Of a stretch of DNA of 64,000 nt, positions 51,925 through 58,000 are shown piece by piece. The stretch spans positions 1 through 64,000 of the forward strand of contig JAGOKF010000013.1 in the NCBI GenBank assembly GCA_017994695.1, in the 5' to 3' direction. The notes beneath the pieces are model-generated. The model saw only the letters and a list, made by a program, of their open reading frames with translations. It searched no databases and was not told where the DNA came from. The translations under genes were made by a program, and so were the position numbers. Numbering within the stretch: position 1 is the stretch's first letter; each line of letters opens with the position of its first letter. This stretch comes from Myxococcota bacterium (GTDB lineage: Bacteria; Myxococcota_A; UBA9042; DTJE01).

Positions 51925-51998
51925 CGGGGCGTAGCGCAGCCTGGTAGCGCACATGGTTCGGGACCATGGAGTCGCTGGTTCAAATCCAGTCGCCCCGA
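51925..51998 (+). tRNA. tRNA-Pro (anticodon CGG)
   Basis: The cloverleaf is complete: acceptor CGGGGCG / CGCCCCG (51925-51931 with 51991-51997), D stem GCGC/GCGC, anticodon stem CATGG/CCATG with loop TTCGGGA (anticodon CGG, 51959-51961), T stem GCTGG/CCAGT with loop TTCAAAT, discriminator A at 51998. The C1-G72 pair is typical for proline tRNAs. CCA is not encoded. It reads CCG codons, heavily used here. Confidence 0.96.
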
Positions 51999-52018
51999 CT
52001 CGCACGGAAGGTGCCTTC

Positions 52019-52435
52019 ATGCGGATTCTCTGGGGTCTTTCCCTGATCCTCCTGGCGGTGGCCGTCCTCTCCTGCGCCCCGGACCGGAACTCCGGCGGGG
52101 ATGCCGAGCGTCACCTCGCCAGGCTGACCCCCCTGGGACAGCCCGTCCCCGATTCCCTGGACCGCAAGGACGGGGATGCCACCGACTGGAAGCTGCTGGA
52201 CATCCAGGACACCGGCTACCTGAACGTCGAGGTGGTGCTGGACAACCCCGAGGCCGAGGTGATGCTCGAGGCCTTCGACCGGTACGGCCGGCGGATCGGG
52301 CGCACGGTCCACCGGAAGGACGACGGCCCGGTGGTGAAGCTGACCGCCGAGGTGGTCATCGGCAAGGGCTTCCTGCGGGTGTCCCACCTGGGCGGCCCGA
52401 AGACCGGCTACACCCTGAAGGCCTTCGTTCGCTGA
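52019..52435 (+). CDS. Small lipoprotein, pre-peptidase/beta-sandwich-like, function unknown
   Basis: This 138-residue protein starts at ATG 52019 (GGAAGGTG upstream). The lipoprotein signal ends VLSC, with lipidation at Cys20. The mature part is beta-rich: DWKLLDIQDTGYLNVEVVLDN, AEVMLEAFDRYGRRIGRTV, VKLTAEVVIGKGFLRVSHLG, YTLKAFVR. The pattern resembles bacterial pre-peptidase C-terminal-like sandwiches (strand pairs with a final YTL strand). It may be cotranscribed with the tRNA. It precedes the Hxs cassette, which has its own promoter, so a link is uncertain; it has no His-x-Ser repeats. Confidence 0.75.
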   Translation: MRILWGLSLILLAVAVLSCAPDRNSGGDAERHLARLTPLGQPVPDSLDRKDGDATDWKLLDIQDTGYLNVEVVLDNPEAEVMLEAFDRYGRRIGRTVHRKDDGPVVKLTAEVVIGKGFLRVSHLGGPKTGYTLKAFVR

Positions 52436-52482
52436 CCACCGCCCTTTCCCCAGGAACCATGCGCCCGGCGAGCCCCCGTGCC

Positions 52483-52511
52483 TTGACGGTGGAGGGATCG
52501 ACCGCTAGCAT
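52483..52511 (+). promoter_or_regulatory. Promoter of the Hxs-like radical-SAM cassette
   Basis: TTGACG (52483-52488) and TAGCAT (52506-52511) are exactly 17 bases apart. The leader of about 75 bases contains a GC hairpin CGGCGG/CCGCCG (52530-52549) before the GGGAGG ribosome-binding site of the first gene. Confidence 0.65.
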
Positions 52512-52594
52512 TGCCCCGTCCCGGGAAGACGGCGGCTCGGAACCCGCCGGGAAAGACTCGTTCACGATTTCCGTCCACAGCGGGAGGCGAGGAA

Positions 52595-53140
52595 ATGGCA
52601 ACGGCCAAGGGCGCAGCGAAGAGCAAGGGAGTGCAGCCGGGCCCCGAGGGGTCCCTGCTGGTCCACAAGAACCTCTACTCGAAGGAGGTCCTGTTCGGCA
52701 CCGCCTTCACCTTCCTGGACCGCTGCTACGTGCACCTGGACGTCGCGGATCCCGACCGCATCCGGGTCCAGTTGCGCCCCCGTCCCAACTCCCCCTGGAC
52801 CGCCGAAGACCTGGCGGGTGAGTTCGCCAACGAACTGGTGAACCAGGCCCTCCGGTTCCACTTCTCGAAACAGACCGAGAAGGTCCGGTCCCAGATCATC
52901 ACCCGGGCCATCGCCCTCGCCGGTGCCGGTGACCTGGCGCCCTCTCAGGCCCAGGTCCCCGGCGCGTCGGTTCCCGACCTCCCGCCGGAGGTGGCCAAGC
53001 TGCTGGCGGAAGAGGACGAGATCCTGGACTTCCTGGACGACCCGCTGGGCATCGCGGTGCCCTGGGAGGAGAAGTATGGCAAGGAGGGGAAGGCCCCGAA
53101 CGCCCCCACCCCGGAACCCGAAAAACCCGAGAGCCGGTAG
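52595..53140 (+). CDS. HxsD-like protein 1, with long C-terminal extension
   Basis: The ATG at 52595 follows GGGAGGCGAGGAA and gives 181 residues. The core (about 18-95) begins LLVHKNLYSKEVLFGTAFTFLD, runs through YVHLDVADPDRIRVQLRP and ends in AGEFANELVNQALR. The last segment fits the LLNDYxLRE motif that defines the HxsD family of the His-Xaa-Ser system. HxsD proteins are usually just over 100 residues. Here about 80 extra residues follow: a Pro/Ala stretch, then the acidic, Trp/Tyr-containing LLAEEDEILDFLDDPLG and PWEEKYG, and a Pro/Glu tail. The protein is cytosolic. HxsD function is unknown; a leader-binding or scaffold role for the maturases is possible. The extension could itself be a modification target, which is speculation. 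Confidence 0.65.
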   Translation: MATAKGAAKSKGVQPGPEGSLLVHKNLYSKEVLFGTAFTFLDRCYVHLDVADPDRIRVQLRPRPNSPWTAEDLAGEFANELVNQALRFHFSKQTEKVRSQIITRAIALAGAGDLAPSQAQVPGASVPDLPPEVAKLLAEEDEILDFLDDPLGIAVPWEEKYGKEGKAPNAPTPEPEKPESR

Positions 53141-53164
53141 GCCCGCCGGCAGGAGAGGACGCCG

Positions 53165-53380
53165 ATGACCTTGAGATTCCACAAGCGCATCTACTCGCGG
53201 AAGGCTCTGCTGGAAACCGTCGAGGCCTTCCGGGGCGTGGTCGAGGCCAGGCTGTCCAGCGACAAGGACCACTTCGTCCTGGAGGTGCAGGTCCCGGACC
53301 CCGCCGACGCGGACGAGATCGGCGGGGAAATGATGAACTGGGCCCTGGGACGCACCATCGAGCAGCGAGGCGAGTCATGA
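53165..53380 (+). CDS. HxsD-like protein 2, short paralog
   Basis: This 71-residue protein has an AGGAGAGG ribosome-binding site. It parallels the previous gene: LRFHKRIYSRKALLETVEAFRG matches LLVHKNLYSKEVLFGTAFTFLD, FVLEVQVPDPADADEIG matches the central strand region, and GEMMNWALGRTI is the counterpart of NELVNQALR (LLNDYxLRE motif). It lacks any C-terminal extension. Its stop overlaps the HxsB start (ATGA), so it is produced with the maturase. Two HxsD-like genes in a row are unexpected; they may form a heterodimer. Confidence 0.7.
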   Translation: MTLRFHKRIYSRKALLETVEAFRGVVEARLSSDKDHFVLEVQVPDPADADEIGGEMMNWALGRTIEQRGES

Positions 53381-54885
53381 CTCGAACCAAGGATCCCAAG
53401 CCGGCCAAGGCTCCGAAGACCCGTTCCAACCTCGCCCGGTGGCGGCGCCTGGGGGACCGGTACGTGGTGACCAACGACCACGGCGCCTTCGCGTTCCTGG
53501 ATGACGGGGAACTGGACGCCCTGGTCCACGGCCGGGTCCGGCCGGGCACCGCGCTGTTCGCACGGCTCCGGGACCGGGGCTTCCTGGTGGACGACGACAA
53601 CCTGGACGACCTCGCCCGCCAGTGGGACCGCCGCCACGACTTCGCCTACCAGGGCACCGTGCTGCACATCCTGGTCGTGACCCTGCGGTGCAACGAGGTC
53701 TGCTCCTACTGCCACGCCAGCCGCCAGAACATGAACGAGACCGAGGTGGACATGTCCATCGCCACGGCCGAGCGGTGCGTGGACATGGCGATGAAGACCC
53801 CCTCGGACAGCGTGACGATCGAGTTCCAGGGGGGCGAGCCCCTGGCCAACTTCGAGGTGGTCCGGCACGTGGTGGAATACGGGCGGGAGAAGGCCCGGCA
53901 GCGCGACAAGCGGGTGATGTTCAGCCTAGTCAGCAACCTTTCCCTGCTGGACGAGGAAAAGCTGCGCTGGCTGGTGGACCACCGGATCCAGGTCTCCACC
54001 TCCCTGGACGGGCCGAAGGACCTCCACGACCGGAACCGGAAACTCTCCGGGTCCAGCGCCTGGGAACGCACGGTCCACTGGATGCAGCGCATCAACCAGG
54101 CCTACGCCGAGGCGGGGCTGGACCCGAGCCTCTACCGGGTGGAGGCCCTGGCGACCATCACCCGGGAGCACCTGGGCCGGGCGAAGGACCTGGTGGACGA
54201 GTACGTTCGCCAGGGGTGCCGGGCGCTGTTCCTGAGGCCCCTGAACCCCTTCGGGTACGCCCGGAAGACCGGGGATCGCCTGGGGTACACGGCCCAGGAG
54301 TTCCTGGACTTCTACAACGAGGCCCTGGACCACGTGATGGCCCTGAACCGCCAGGGCGTGGAGATCATGGAGCGCCTGGCGGCGCTGTTCCTGACCAAGA
54401 TCCTGACGCCCGACGACCCGAACTACCTGGACATCCGGAATCCCTGCGGGGCGGGTATCGGCCAGATCGCCTACAACTACGACGGGTCGATCTTCACCTG
54501 CGACGAGGGGCGGATGGTGTACCAGATGGGGGACGAGGTCTTCCGGATCGGCTCGGTGGACTCGATGTCCCTGCGGGACGTGGTGAACTCCGACACCGTG
54601 AAGTCCCTGGCGGTGGCCTCCTGCCTGGACGCGCTGCCGGGATGCGCCACCTGCGCCTACAAGCCCTACTGCGGCACCTGCCCGGTGTACAACTACACCG
54701 AGCAGGGCAACATCTTCCCCCAGAACTCCACCAACCCGCGGTGCGCGATCTACATGGGAGTCCAGGACCGGCTGTTCCGGGAACTGATGTCCGGGGACCC
54801 CGAAGTCGAGCAGATGTTCCAGCGGTGGGTCACCGTGAAGGAGCGTTCCGAGTACCTGTTCAACCGGCGGAACGATGCTCCCTGA
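53377..54885 (+). CDS. hxsB: HxsB-type radical SAM maturase with SPASM domain
   Basis: This 502-residue protein has an N-terminal recognition-type domain (about 18-85: LARWRRLGDRYVVTNDHGAFAFLDDGEL, then LFARLRDRGFLVDDD) typical of HxsB. The radical SAM core has C105-x3-C109-x2-C112 in TLRCNEVCSYCHASRQ, DSVTIEFQGGEPLANFE and STSLDGPKDLHDRN. The SPASM-type region has NPCGAG, FTCDEGRM and CLDALPGCATCAYKPYCGTCP, which would bind auxiliary iron-sulfur clusters. Members are predicted peptide maturases of the His-Xaa-Ser system. It overlaps HxsD-like 2 and is followed after 15 bases by a second radical SAM gene. No precursor with His-x-Ser repeats was found within the window. Confidence 0.85.
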   Translation: MTRTKDPKPAKAPKTRSNLARWRRLGDRYVVTNDHGAFAFLDDGELDALVHGRVRPGTALFARLRDRGFLVDDDNLDDLARQWDRRHDFAYQGTVLHILVVTLRCNEVCSYCHASRQNMNETEVDMSIATAERCVDMAMKTPSDSVTIEFQGGEPLANFEVVRHVVEYGREKARQRDKRVMFSLVSNLSLLDEEKLRWLVDHRIQVSTSLDGPKDLHDRNRKLSGSSAWERTVHWMQRINQAYAEAGLDPSLYRVEALATITREHLGRAKDLVDEYVRQGCRALFLRPLNPFGYARKTGDRLGYTAQEFLDFYNEALDHVMALNRQGVEIMERLAALFLTKILTPDDPNYLDIRNPCGAGIGQIAYNYDGSIFTCDEGRMVYQMGDEVFRIGSVDSMSLRDVVNSDTVKSLAVASCLDALPGCATCAYKPYCGTCPVYNYTEQGNIFPQNSTNPRCAIYMGVQDRLFRELMSGDPEVEQMFQRWVTVKERSEYLFNRRNDAP

Positions 54886-54900
54886 CCGAAGGCCGACGGG

Positions 54901-55830
54901 ATGCCCCAGGGGAATCCAGCGAACCCGGCCGTCCGGGCCGTCCTGAAGATCACCTATCGCTGCAACCAGCGCTGCCTGTTCTGCCGGGCCGACGCCTGGC
55001 GGGGGGAGGTCCCGGACCTCCCGGCCGAGGCGGTGGTCCGCAAGGCCCTGGAAGCCCGGAACCGGGGAGCAACGATGGTGGTCTTCAGCGGGGGGGAACC
55101 GCTGCTGCGCCGGGACCTCCCCCGACTGGCCCGGGCCGTCGGGGCCCTGGGACTCTCCTTCGGCCTGATCACCAACGGGCGACGCCTGGCGGACCCGGAG
55201 GTGCGCCGGAGACTGCTGGACCTGGGCCTGGCCTACGTCCACACGAGCCTCCACGGTTCCACCCCCGAGGTGCACGACCGCCTGGTCGCGGACCCGGGAT
55301 CCTTCCGGGACGTGATGGCGGCCCTGGAAGGCCTGAAGGACAGCGGCGTGGAACGCCACGTGAACACCGTGCTGACCCGGGACAACCTGGACCAGGTCAC
55401 CGCCATCACGGGGCTGCTGGTTCCCCTGGGCCCCCTTTCCCACAAGCTGTGCCTCGCCGAGCCCCGGGGACCCCTGCCCGGCATCGACTGGTCCCTGCTG
55501 CCCCCGCCGGAGGCCGCGGGACAGGCGGCCCAGCAGGCGGTGGTCTGGGCCGAGTCCCGCCTGGCGGGATCGGGCATCCAGATCGTGGTGGAGGGATTCC
55601 CCCTCTGCCAGATCCCCTCGGCGACCCACGCGGTCTCGGGGCTCCGGGCCCACGGAATCCTCTGGATCTCCGAAGGGTTCGAGGACGATCTGTACCCCAC
55701 CGACGCCGGTCCCAGGGTCTTCCCGCCGATCTGCGAGACCTGTGCCCGGAGGACCGAGTGCCCCGGCGTCTATCCCGGCTATGCCGAACGCTACGGGGTC
55801 ATCGGCCTGAGGGCCTTTCGACGACGGTGA
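54901..55830 (+). CDS. Second radical SAM enzyme of the Hxs-like cassette (HxsC position)
   Basis: This 309-residue protein has the cluster motif C21-x3-C25-x2-C28 in ITYRCNQRCLFCRAD, VVFSGGEPLLRRDLP, FGLITNGRRL, HTSLHGSTPEVHDRL and RHVNTVLTRDNLDQV. A C-terminal C278-x2-C281-x5-C287 motif, CETCARRTECPGVYPGY, could hold one auxiliary cluster. It occupies the place of HxsC, but the sequence looks like a general radical SAM peptide-modifying enzyme rather than clear HxsC. It ends ten bases from the convergent TSP3 lipoprotein. Confidence 0.85.
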   Translation: MPQGNPANPAVRAVLKITYRCNQRCLFCRADAWRGEVPDLPAEAVVRKALEARNRGATMVVFSGGEPLLRRDLPRLARAVGALGLSFGLITNGRRLADPEVRRRLLDLGLAYVHTSLHGSTPEVHDRLVADPGSFRDVMAALEGLKDSGVERHVNTVLTRDNLDQVTAITGLLVPLGPLSHKLCLAEPRGPLPGIDWSLLPPPEAAGQAAQQAVVWAESRLAGSGIQIVVEGFPLCQIPSATHAVSGLRAHGILWISEGFEDDLYPTDAGPRVFPPICETCARRTECPGVYPGYAERYGVIGLRAFRRR

Positions 55831-55840
55831 GGCCAGGCCG

Positions 55841-58000
55841 TCATTCGGGCAGGCGGGCCGAGACCGAGTCCTGGGAGACCACCGCGCACTGGAGGTTCAC
55901 GTCGGAGTAGGCGAAATCGTTGCCGTAGTCGAAGGGCTTGCCCCCTCCCTCCAGCACGTAGGCCGACAGTTCCCACTCCAGCGTCCGGGCGTCGAACCGG
56001 TGGGGAGAGGGCGAGTCGGGAGGCGTGGGGCTCGGGTTCTGGAGCAGGGGCCGGACCGCGGCGTCGTCCGGCAGGGTCGGCAGGTCCGCCCGGTCCCGGT
56101 CCGGGGGCACGAAGATCTCCCAGAGGCAATGGGACCTCGGGCCGCCGAGGGTGCCGATCCCGCCGGTGTCGGGATTCTCCAGGAGCCCGTTGGCGGGGGC
56201 GGCCGTCAGGTAGTTGACCCGCAGCACGTAGAGGTGGGGGGCCCGGGGCGATTGCACCGGCAGCCACTCCACGTGGCCGGTGAAGGGGTCCCGGGAGACC
56301 GCGTCCAGGGGGGTCCCGTCCGGCGGCGGCTCCGGGAAAGTGATCCGGGGGACCTCCAGCCAGGTTTCCTGCCGGGAGAAGTCCACCTCGTCGCCGGCGG
56401 CCACGCCGGGCCGCACGGGGGTCGAGATCCCCGGCGGATCCCCGCCGTAGTAGGTGCTCCGGCCGGCCAGCCCCACGGCCAGGCGATTCAGCGACAGGCC
56501 CAGGCGCCGGATGGCCGGGTGATCGTCTTCGGGAAAGCGGACATGGACGGGCCCCGGGAAGGCGGGGTCCTGGTAGGAACCGTCCACGGTGACCCAGATG
56601 AAGCCCTCGCCGCCGGTGTCCGCGACGGGCATCACCAGGCGGTTCGGGAGTCGCTGGCCGGTCTTCCAGTCGATCGGCGGCTGTCCGAGCCGGACGGCGA
56701 CCGTGGTCCCCTCCTCGGGACGCAGGTCGATGTCCATCAGGAGATCCTGGCGGACCTCCCGGCCCCCCTGGACCTGGACCCGGGCGATGGACATGGCCCT
56801 GGGCCGGAAGACCAGGCTGTAGGGGTCGCTGATGGCATCCAGAACCCGGGACGCGGTGCCGCCCAGCGCGAAGAGCAGGTACTGCCCCTCGGGGACGTTC
56901 TCCATGCGGAACGACGGGGCACAGGTGGCATCGGGCCGGTCCGCCAGTTCGCAGATGGCCATGTTGTTGGGGATCGGCAGCCCGCCCTGGTCCGAGGGAG
57001 CCTCCAGCACGCTCCCCATGCTCATCGACGAGAGGGGCACGTCCCGGATCGAGAGCTGCACCAGCGCCAGGGGGACCTCCTTCTTCCGGTCGAAGGCATC
57101 CAGCAGGCCCCCCGGGGGGAACCGGGGCAGCCCGCCCTCGCCGGCGAAGCCGGTCACGGTGCCGACGATCGATCCGACCCGGGCCTGGTCCCGGGGCAGC
57201 ACCGGGTCCAGGGGCGCCATCAGCACCGATAGCGAGGCGGCATCGAGACCCAGGTAGGTGGTGAAGCGGTAGCCCTCGGCCCCGACCGTCACGTCCACGG
57301 GCCCCTGGACCTCGGGTCCCTCGAAGATCACCGTTCCGCTGGCGTCGGTCACCCGGGTCGGCCACCATCCCGAGGCCCCCCGGACGCTCACCTGGGCCCC
57401 GGCGAAGGGTCTGGGGGTTCCGGCATAGACGTTGGTCAGGGCATGGACCTGGAAGCGCCCGCGGATGGGACCGGCCCCCTTCGCCTCCCCGGTGTTGACC
57501 CCCGGGCGGGCGATTTCCCCGAAACCCACCACCACCTCGTCCCGGACGGCCTTCGAGGTGTCCTCGGGATCGTCGTAGGAAGCGGCGATCGTCGCCTGGA
57601 TCGGCCGGGAGGTGCAGGCCTGGACCCGGTAGGACCCGTCGGGGGCCTTTTCCACGGGCGCCAGATCCCCCTCGCTCCACTGGAACCGGACGTCCCGGTC
57701 GGCCAGGGGCTGGCCCCGGCCGTCCTGCAGCAGCGCCACGACCACCGAGCACCGGATCCCCTCGGAGGTCCGGAAGACCGGGCTGGCGGTCAGCCGGAGG
57801 CGGTATCCCACCCCCAGGGGATCCGGATCCCGCCCGTCGGGAATCCCGTCGCCGTCGGTGTCGGGATTCGCGGGGTCGGTGCCGAAGAGTTGCTCCTGGC
57901 GGTCCGTCAGTCCGTCCCCGTCCCGGTCCTCCCCGATGCCCGGGTGGCAGGCCATCCAGAGGACGGCCAGCAGGGCGACATGCTTCCTTCCGAGTCTCAT
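55841..58000 (-). CDS. Lipoprotein with thrombospondin type-3 repeats
   Basis: From ATG 58000 the protein has 719 residues. A lipoprotein signal (VALLAVLWMAC) is followed by two calcium-binding TSP3 units: EDRDGDGLTDRQEQLFGTDP and DTDGDGIPDGRDPDP. Several beta-sandwich domains follow (RFQWSEGDLAPVEKA, AQVSVRGASGWWPTRVTDASG), then a long domain without recognisable motifs containing HCLWEIFVPPDRDR. The second domain resembles carboxypeptidase-regulatory or Ig-like folds. It is probably exposed on the cell surface. The FadL-type gene stops ten bases upstream, so the two are cotranscribed. The end faces the Hxs cassette. Confidence 0.8.
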   Translation of the reverse strand: MRLGRKHVALLAVLWMACHPGIGEDRDGDGLTDRQEQLFGTDPANPDTDGDGIPDGRDPDPLGVGYRLRLTASPVFRTSEGIRCSVVVALLQDGRGQPLADRDVRFQWSEGDLAPVEKAPDGSYRVQACTSRPIQATIAASYDDPEDTSKAVRDEVVVGFGEIARPGVNTGEAKGAGPIRGRFQVHALTNVYAGTPRPFAGAQVSVRGASGWWPTRVTDASGTVIFEGPEVQGPVDVTVGAEGYRFTTYLGLDAASLSVLMAPLDPVLPRDQARVGSIVGTVTGFAGEGGLPRFPPGGLLDAFDRKKEVPLALVQLSIRDVPLSSMSMGSVLEAPSDQGGLPIPNNMAICELADRPDATCAPSFRMENVPEGQYLLFALGGTASRVLDAISDPYSLVFRPRAMSIARVQVQGGREVRQDLLMDIDLRPEEGTTVAVRLGQPPIDWKTGQRLPNRLVMPVADTGGEGFIWVTVDGSYQDPAFPGPVHVRFPEDDHPAIRRLGLSLNRLAVGLAGRSTYYGGDPPGISTPVRPGVAAGDEVDFSRQETWLEVPRITFPEPPPDGTPLDAVSRDPFTGHVEWLPVQSPRAPHLYVLRVNYLTAAPANGLLENPDTGGIGTLGGPRSHCLWEIFVPPDRDRADLPTLPDDAAVRPLLQNPSPTPPDSPSPHRFDARTLEWELSAYVLEGGGKPFDYGNDFAYSDVNLQCAVVSQDSVSARLPE

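Follow-up and report, generated by a model that had tools for sequence, protein, structure and literature searches.

A D1-D2-HxsB cassette of a Myxococcota bacterium as the probable central module of a scattered HxsA4-type His-Xaa-Ser system

Introduction

Classical His-Xaa-Ser loci, such as those of Paraburkholderia phenoliruptrix pSYMBR3459 and Aeromonas salmonicida plasmid 4, encode in one operon the maturase HxsB and an HxsD protein, with a second radical S-adenosylmethionine (radical-SAM) enzyme, HxsC, and a His-x-Ser repeat precursor that usually lies beside the enzymes. NCBIfam also holds models for an HxsA4 type (HxsA4, NF038313; HxsC4, NF038332; HxsD_rel, NF038315), next to TIGR03978 for HxsB and TIGR03976 for HxsD. 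In the open literature (subscription papers being outside the scope) we found no paper describing a product or a mechanism of His-Xaa-Ser systems. Here we analyze a four-gene cassette in a stretch of 64,000 nucleotides from a Myxococcota bacterium (GCA_017994695.1, contig JAGOKF010000013.1, positions 1 to 64,000; hereafter the window, to which the cassette coordinates refer). It encodes an HxsD family protein with a C-terminal extension (D1), a short HxsD-like protein (D2), HxsB and a second radical-SAM enzyme. From sequence comparisons, we propose that this cassette probably forms the core of the maturation machinery in an HxsA4-type system dispersed over the genome.

Results

The precursor is encoded on another contig and is retained together with D1

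The initial annotation of the locus had noticed no HxsA precursor. This holds for the window, in which there is no HxsA, but not for the genome. The genome-wide scan for His-x-Ser repeat proteins that it had recommended, done with a DNA pattern for four His-x-Ser units, yielded one HxsA4 protein on a contig other than that of the cassette (G000:C112:38695-39018), at least about 47 kb away as judged from contig ends, in agreement with its suggestion that the target could be distant. The precursor, of about 112 aa, has a leader LPVFKKRLQDFLSSEEGKIT... and a core HCS(HGS)n-W, its open reading frame (ORF) reading MATRLPVFKKRLQDFLSSEEGKITRGQAAAVGSFLLMAGASGHALASGAHGEGGPAADLAAEQHCS(HGS)nW. The protein reached 93.1 bits against NF038313 (cut-off 55), and scanning the genome with this model gave 61.3 bits for HxsA4 and 91.2 bits with a neighbouring match. 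Classical HxsA (TIGR03979) had nothing above its cut-off in this genome (best E 0.107); that search alone missed the array, and it is the pattern scan that rules out a precursor-less genome. Each of the 13 family genomes has a His-x-Ser array (imperfect in G008, cut by contig ends in G006), which never lies inside the cassette locus.

We then compared the occurrence of D1 and of an HCS(HxS)n array in 237 genomes of the phylum with a completeness of at least 85%. D1 was present in 84 of them and the array in 79: 78 genomes had both, 6 had D1 only, 1 had the array only and 152 had neither (Fisher p 3e-54, shared ancestry ignored). For these counts, array hits judged by eye to be other repeats were removed (G135 C1, G150, G159, G182, G220, G225, G231), G008 was added from the family array scan and G129 was left out (D1 E 9e-4). 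The array lay at most 10 kb from D1 in 37 genomes, usually at 2.0-2.5 kb and just after HxsB, and on a different contig in 41.

In 11 of the 13 family genomes, the HxsA4 precursor stands directly upstream of ccmE, ccmF, ccmA, ccmB and ccmC. Since this neighbourhood is missing in genus g3 (L198, L204) and in 19 regions outside the family, we take it as family synteny and not as a link of the precursor to cytochrome c maturation. Between the precursor and ccmE there is a palindrome, TGTTGACGTGTCAACA (L195, G000:C112:30000-48000; L196-L207), and upstream of the precursor a TTGACA...GATAAT-like site (L195-L207). In two Patescibacteria-type loci (L115:3302-4822, L148:9174-10670), His-x-Ser arrays are found within ORFs of about 500 aa and are followed by Cys/Pro-rich stretches.

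Candidate partner enzymes would act in trans

Four consecutive HxsC-like radical-SAM genes lie on contig C154 of the same genome (L274, 2785-7145). All four products are reciprocal best hits of the radical-SAM enzymes flanking D1-D2-HxsB in L052/L150 (one record) and in L090, and one or two of them are reciprocal best hits of flanking enzymes in L070, L071, L073, L075, L120 and other loci. The first of the four matched HxsC4 nearly over its full length (335.6 bits over profile 13-335/335, cut-off 500), which makes it a better HxsC4 candidate than the enzyme adjacent to HxsB in the cassette. Three of the four fit no named model, and no protein of this genome matched HxsC (TIGR03977) over its cut-off. 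The last one, which we call C4, was sought in the 237 phylum genomes at E <= 1e-70 and found in 79, with 78 genomes having both D1 and C4, 6 D1 only, 1 C4 only and 152 neither. C4 was linked to D1 (<=25 kb) in 45 genomes and unlinked in 33; in families f1 and f2, all tested genomes had it unlinked. With the cassette, the precursor and the C154 enzymes on separate contigs, the system is spread over at least three contigs in this lineage.

Next to Hxs loci in L049-L051 and L090 there are enzymes whose reciprocal best hits are still other radical-SAM enzymes of this genome (L277:3799-5496, minus strand, and L276:2693-6089). A small protein with a PqqD-like look is encoded beside a radical-SAM gene of the same genome (L275:4276-4605).

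The cassette encodes two distinct HxsD-like proteins, HxsB and an unnamed radical-SAM enzyme

As initially annotated, the cassette consists of four genes on the same (+) strand behind one promoter. This sigma-70-like site (TTGACG-17-TAGCAT, 52483..52511, +) is the sole one in 52300-56100, where 0.2 were expected in shuffles. D1 (52595..53140) has 181 aa and passes the HxsD model TIGR03976 (58.1 bits, cut-off 50), which covers residues 24-107 (52664..52915). D2 (53165..53380; 71 aa) starts 24 nt further on; it does not match TIGR03976, but passes NF038315 (60.8 bits, cut-off 41), named 'HxsD-like'. The two proteins share the element K-x-x-Y-S-x-x-x-L (KNLYSKEVL in D1, KRIYSRKAL in D2) and the motifs ELVNQALR and EMMNWALG, respectively, all of which had been read correctly at the outset. 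That annotation had also seen two HxsD paralogs arising from a duplication: homology of both to HxsD stands, but simple paralogy does not, as D2 belongs to NF038315, a distinct HxsD-like family, rather than being a recent duplicate of D1. Likewise, the extension ascribed to D1 is real, with a length of about 70-75 residues and not 80. Neither D1 nor D2 matched an RRE/PqqD family in the family scans.

The start of hxsB (53377..54885) overlaps the stop of the D2 gene (ATGA). Its product, a radical-SAM/SPASM maturase of 502 aa, passes TIGR03978 (546.5 bits, cut-off 370) and carries the predicted CX3CX2C cluster (CNEVCSYC) and SPASM-type cysteines, so that its identity as HxsB is confirmed. After 15 nt follows the second radical-SAM gene (54901..55830; 309 aa, with CX3CX2C and a C-terminal Cys cluster). 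The proposal that it could be HxsC has to be abandoned, given 75.1 bits for TIGR03977 (cut-off 267.9), and since HxsC4 (NF038332) gave 85 bits for a cut-off of 500, the enzyme falls outside both families. It is the reciprocal best hit of the radical-SAM enzyme adjoining HxsB in L038, L039, L041 and L048, and of one radical-SAM enzyme each in L057 and L069. Upstream of the cassette lies a tRNA-Pro (CGG) gene at 51925-51999.

The cassette belongs to an HxsB branch apart from the classical one

The HxsB query had matches in 67 of 90 related genomes (E <= 0.001, other radical-SAM proteins included). Eleven loci of the family, the window among them, and L048 of the sister family keep the complete order D1-D2-HxsB-radical-SAM; in L045, one of the eleven, a contig end truncates D1. 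Within the family, HxsB identity is 65-95%. D1-D2-HxsB with other radical-SAM enzymes recurs through the class and the phylum. By scanning 84,980 species genomes with a D1 alignment, we found 194 places. The best 80 of these are mainly in Myxococcota, but also in Patescibacteria, Omnitrophota, Elusimicrobia, a Spirochaetes metagenome-assembled genome (MAG) and Woesearchaeota, and most of the best 80 have the gene order D1-D2-HxsB. Taxa are named here as in the public records. Judged from these loci, having both D1 and D2 is the rule in this Hxs branch. One locus of Myxococcota type (L117) comes from a record titled as a Klebsiella pneumoniae MAG, a title that looks wrong.

In an HxsB tree of 72 rows, the six classical HxsB form one clade with a support of 100/100, and all HxsB of loci with the D1 tail described below lie across the branch from it, that of the window being inside its own family. 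In class relatives from family f6 (L056, L060, L061, L062, L064), a second HxsB-like gene adjoins a radical-SAM gene, and no D1 or D2 was found near it.

D1 is most conserved in its C-terminal tail

In D1, the HxsD domain is followed by a variable linker and then by the end DDPLGIAVPWEEKYGK. Residues 148-161 (53036..53077), DDPLGIAVPWEEKY, form a tail whose mean information among 70 D1 homologs is 3.7 bits, compared with 2.4 bits for the HxsD domain, and which contains the only invariant residues, D149 and W157. The conservation of the DDPLG/PWEEKYG segment, which the initial annotation had singled out for inspection, is thus extreme. As a tail pattern served to find part of the 70 homologs, the frequency of the tail among them is biased; free of that bias are the 23 D1 proteins reached via HxsB without use of the tail, and all 23 have it. 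Some members carry variants outside the reach of the pattern (DDPSGIAVPWDEKYGK, EDPMGIAVPWDEKYGEK, DDPKEIAIPWEEKYGN), and across Myxococcota, Patescibacteria and archaea the tail hardly changes. One D1 homolog (L052:5701-6429, the same record as L150) has two tail copies, the second being divergent (DDPLEIGALWEES).

By contrast, classical loci have one protein in the HxsD position, of 72-131 aa, and none of the ten examined has the full tail. Five of these are annotated as HxsD; the other five are the ORF just upstream of HxsB, two of them scoring weakly. Partial tail-like ends occur in two Bacteroidota proteins of this set, with SDPVGF-like pieces, and in Calothrix (DYLEDAHHIGK). The tail was also considered as a replacement for HxsA, which is ruled out by the HxS arrays beside many tail-bearing loci and by the 78 genomes having both D1 and the array.

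The genomes of L126, L121, L136 and L145 are among the tail-bearing ones in which a search for C4 brought up no close relative. This suggests that the partner of the tail is HxsB, D2 or the precursor, and makes it unlikely that C4 is the only one.

Predicted folds suggest a D1-D2 heterodimer

D2 is modelled as b-a-b-b-a with a predicted local distance difference test score (pLDDT) of 96.5, and D1 has a confident b-a-b-b-a-a core with an extension and tail mostly of low confidence. In the PDB, D2 comes closest to Pcc1 and D1 to polymerase subunits of the RPB11/AC19 type, with a best E of about 0.02, which is not significant. Since these neighbour folds dimerise and D1 and D2 are strictly paired, we infer that the two proteins may form a heterodimer.

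Discussion

We propose that D1 and D2, folding as b-a-b-b-a subunits, would associate into an adaptor holding the leader of the HxsA4 precursor and presenting its His-Gly-Ser repeats to HxsB and, in trans, to other radical-SAM enzymes. The D1 tail DDPLGIAVPWEEKY, on its variable linker, would most likely dock on HxsB or on an HxsB/D2 complex and thereby recruit the adaptor. That the system is a scattered HxsA4-type one and not an HxsA-less one is suggested by the HxsA4 precursor of the same genome, the reciprocal best hits of the C154 enzymes and the co-occurrence across the phylum. Several points weigh against this proposal. The co-occurrence counts are uncorrected for shared ancestry and come mostly from draft genomes; reciprocity of the C154 enzymes was tested solely against those radical-SAM enzymes of the same genome that had been retrieved by their similarity to HxsC; the fold matches are weak, all with E above 0.001; and the MAGs in which C4 was not found are small and may be incomplete.

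The absence of HxsA from the window and of a TIGR03979 hit above cut-off from the genome could indicate a cassette that has lost HxsA and acts on an unrelated distant protein, or a decaying remnant. We consider this highly improbable, because the genome has an HxsA4 above the family cut-off, the genes are open with HxsB well conserved across the family, and D1 and the array are strongly co-retained. It is also rather unlikely that D1 and D2 serve HxsB purely as structural subunits, with HxsB recognising the precursor and the tail serving as a stability or localisation signal. Such a role would fit the lack of an RRE/PqqD match and the resemblance of the D cores to structural subunits such as RPB11/AC19, but a generic signal would not be expected to vary as little as the tail does, and D1 and D2 remain beside HxsB across phyla, like classical HxsD, which suggests a specific maturation role.

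The conservation of the tail also bears on whether D1 is itself a substrate, its HxsD domain being a built-in leader and its tail DDPLGIAVPWEEKY (Trp157, for example) being modified to give a protein-bound cofactor or a self-modified adaptor beside HxsA4. No part of D1 is better conserved than the tail, which comes after a variable linker; it is found in 23/23 D1 proteins found through HxsB alone, one homolog has a second, divergent copy, and classical HxsD-position proteins, which accompany HxsA or HxsA2, lack it in full. However, nearly all homologs carry just one copy of the tail, its conservation fits a docking motif equally well, and no second substrate is needed given that 78 of the 84 D1 genomes already have the HxsA4 repeat substrate. 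We thus regard D1 as an improbable substrate, and find no more probable the dual role in which D1 would be both substrate and adaptor, with the D149...W157 peptide receiving a protein-bound modification from the Hxs radical-SAM enzymes beside HxsA4.

With D1-D2 as the probable adaptor of a scattered HxsA4-type system, most components fall into families already named by NCBIfam, and so we do not regard it as a new kind of system: D1, D2, HxsB and the unlinked precursor pass their models, and a relative of HxsC4 is encoded on another contig. It differs from what those models describe by genes spread over several contigs, by an adjacent second radical-SAM enzyme and three of four distant ones outside any named model, and by a conserved D1 tail described in none of the matched library models. 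New, as far as these tools show, are the dispersal of genes that are retained together, the set of partner enzymes outside named families and a D1 tail that hardly varies. The analysis thereby names a probable component set for one His-Xaa-Ser branch, whose precursor and enzymes can lie so far apart in a genome that mining of local gene neighbourhoods misses them, and it marks the short D1 tail peptide as the first target for mutation.

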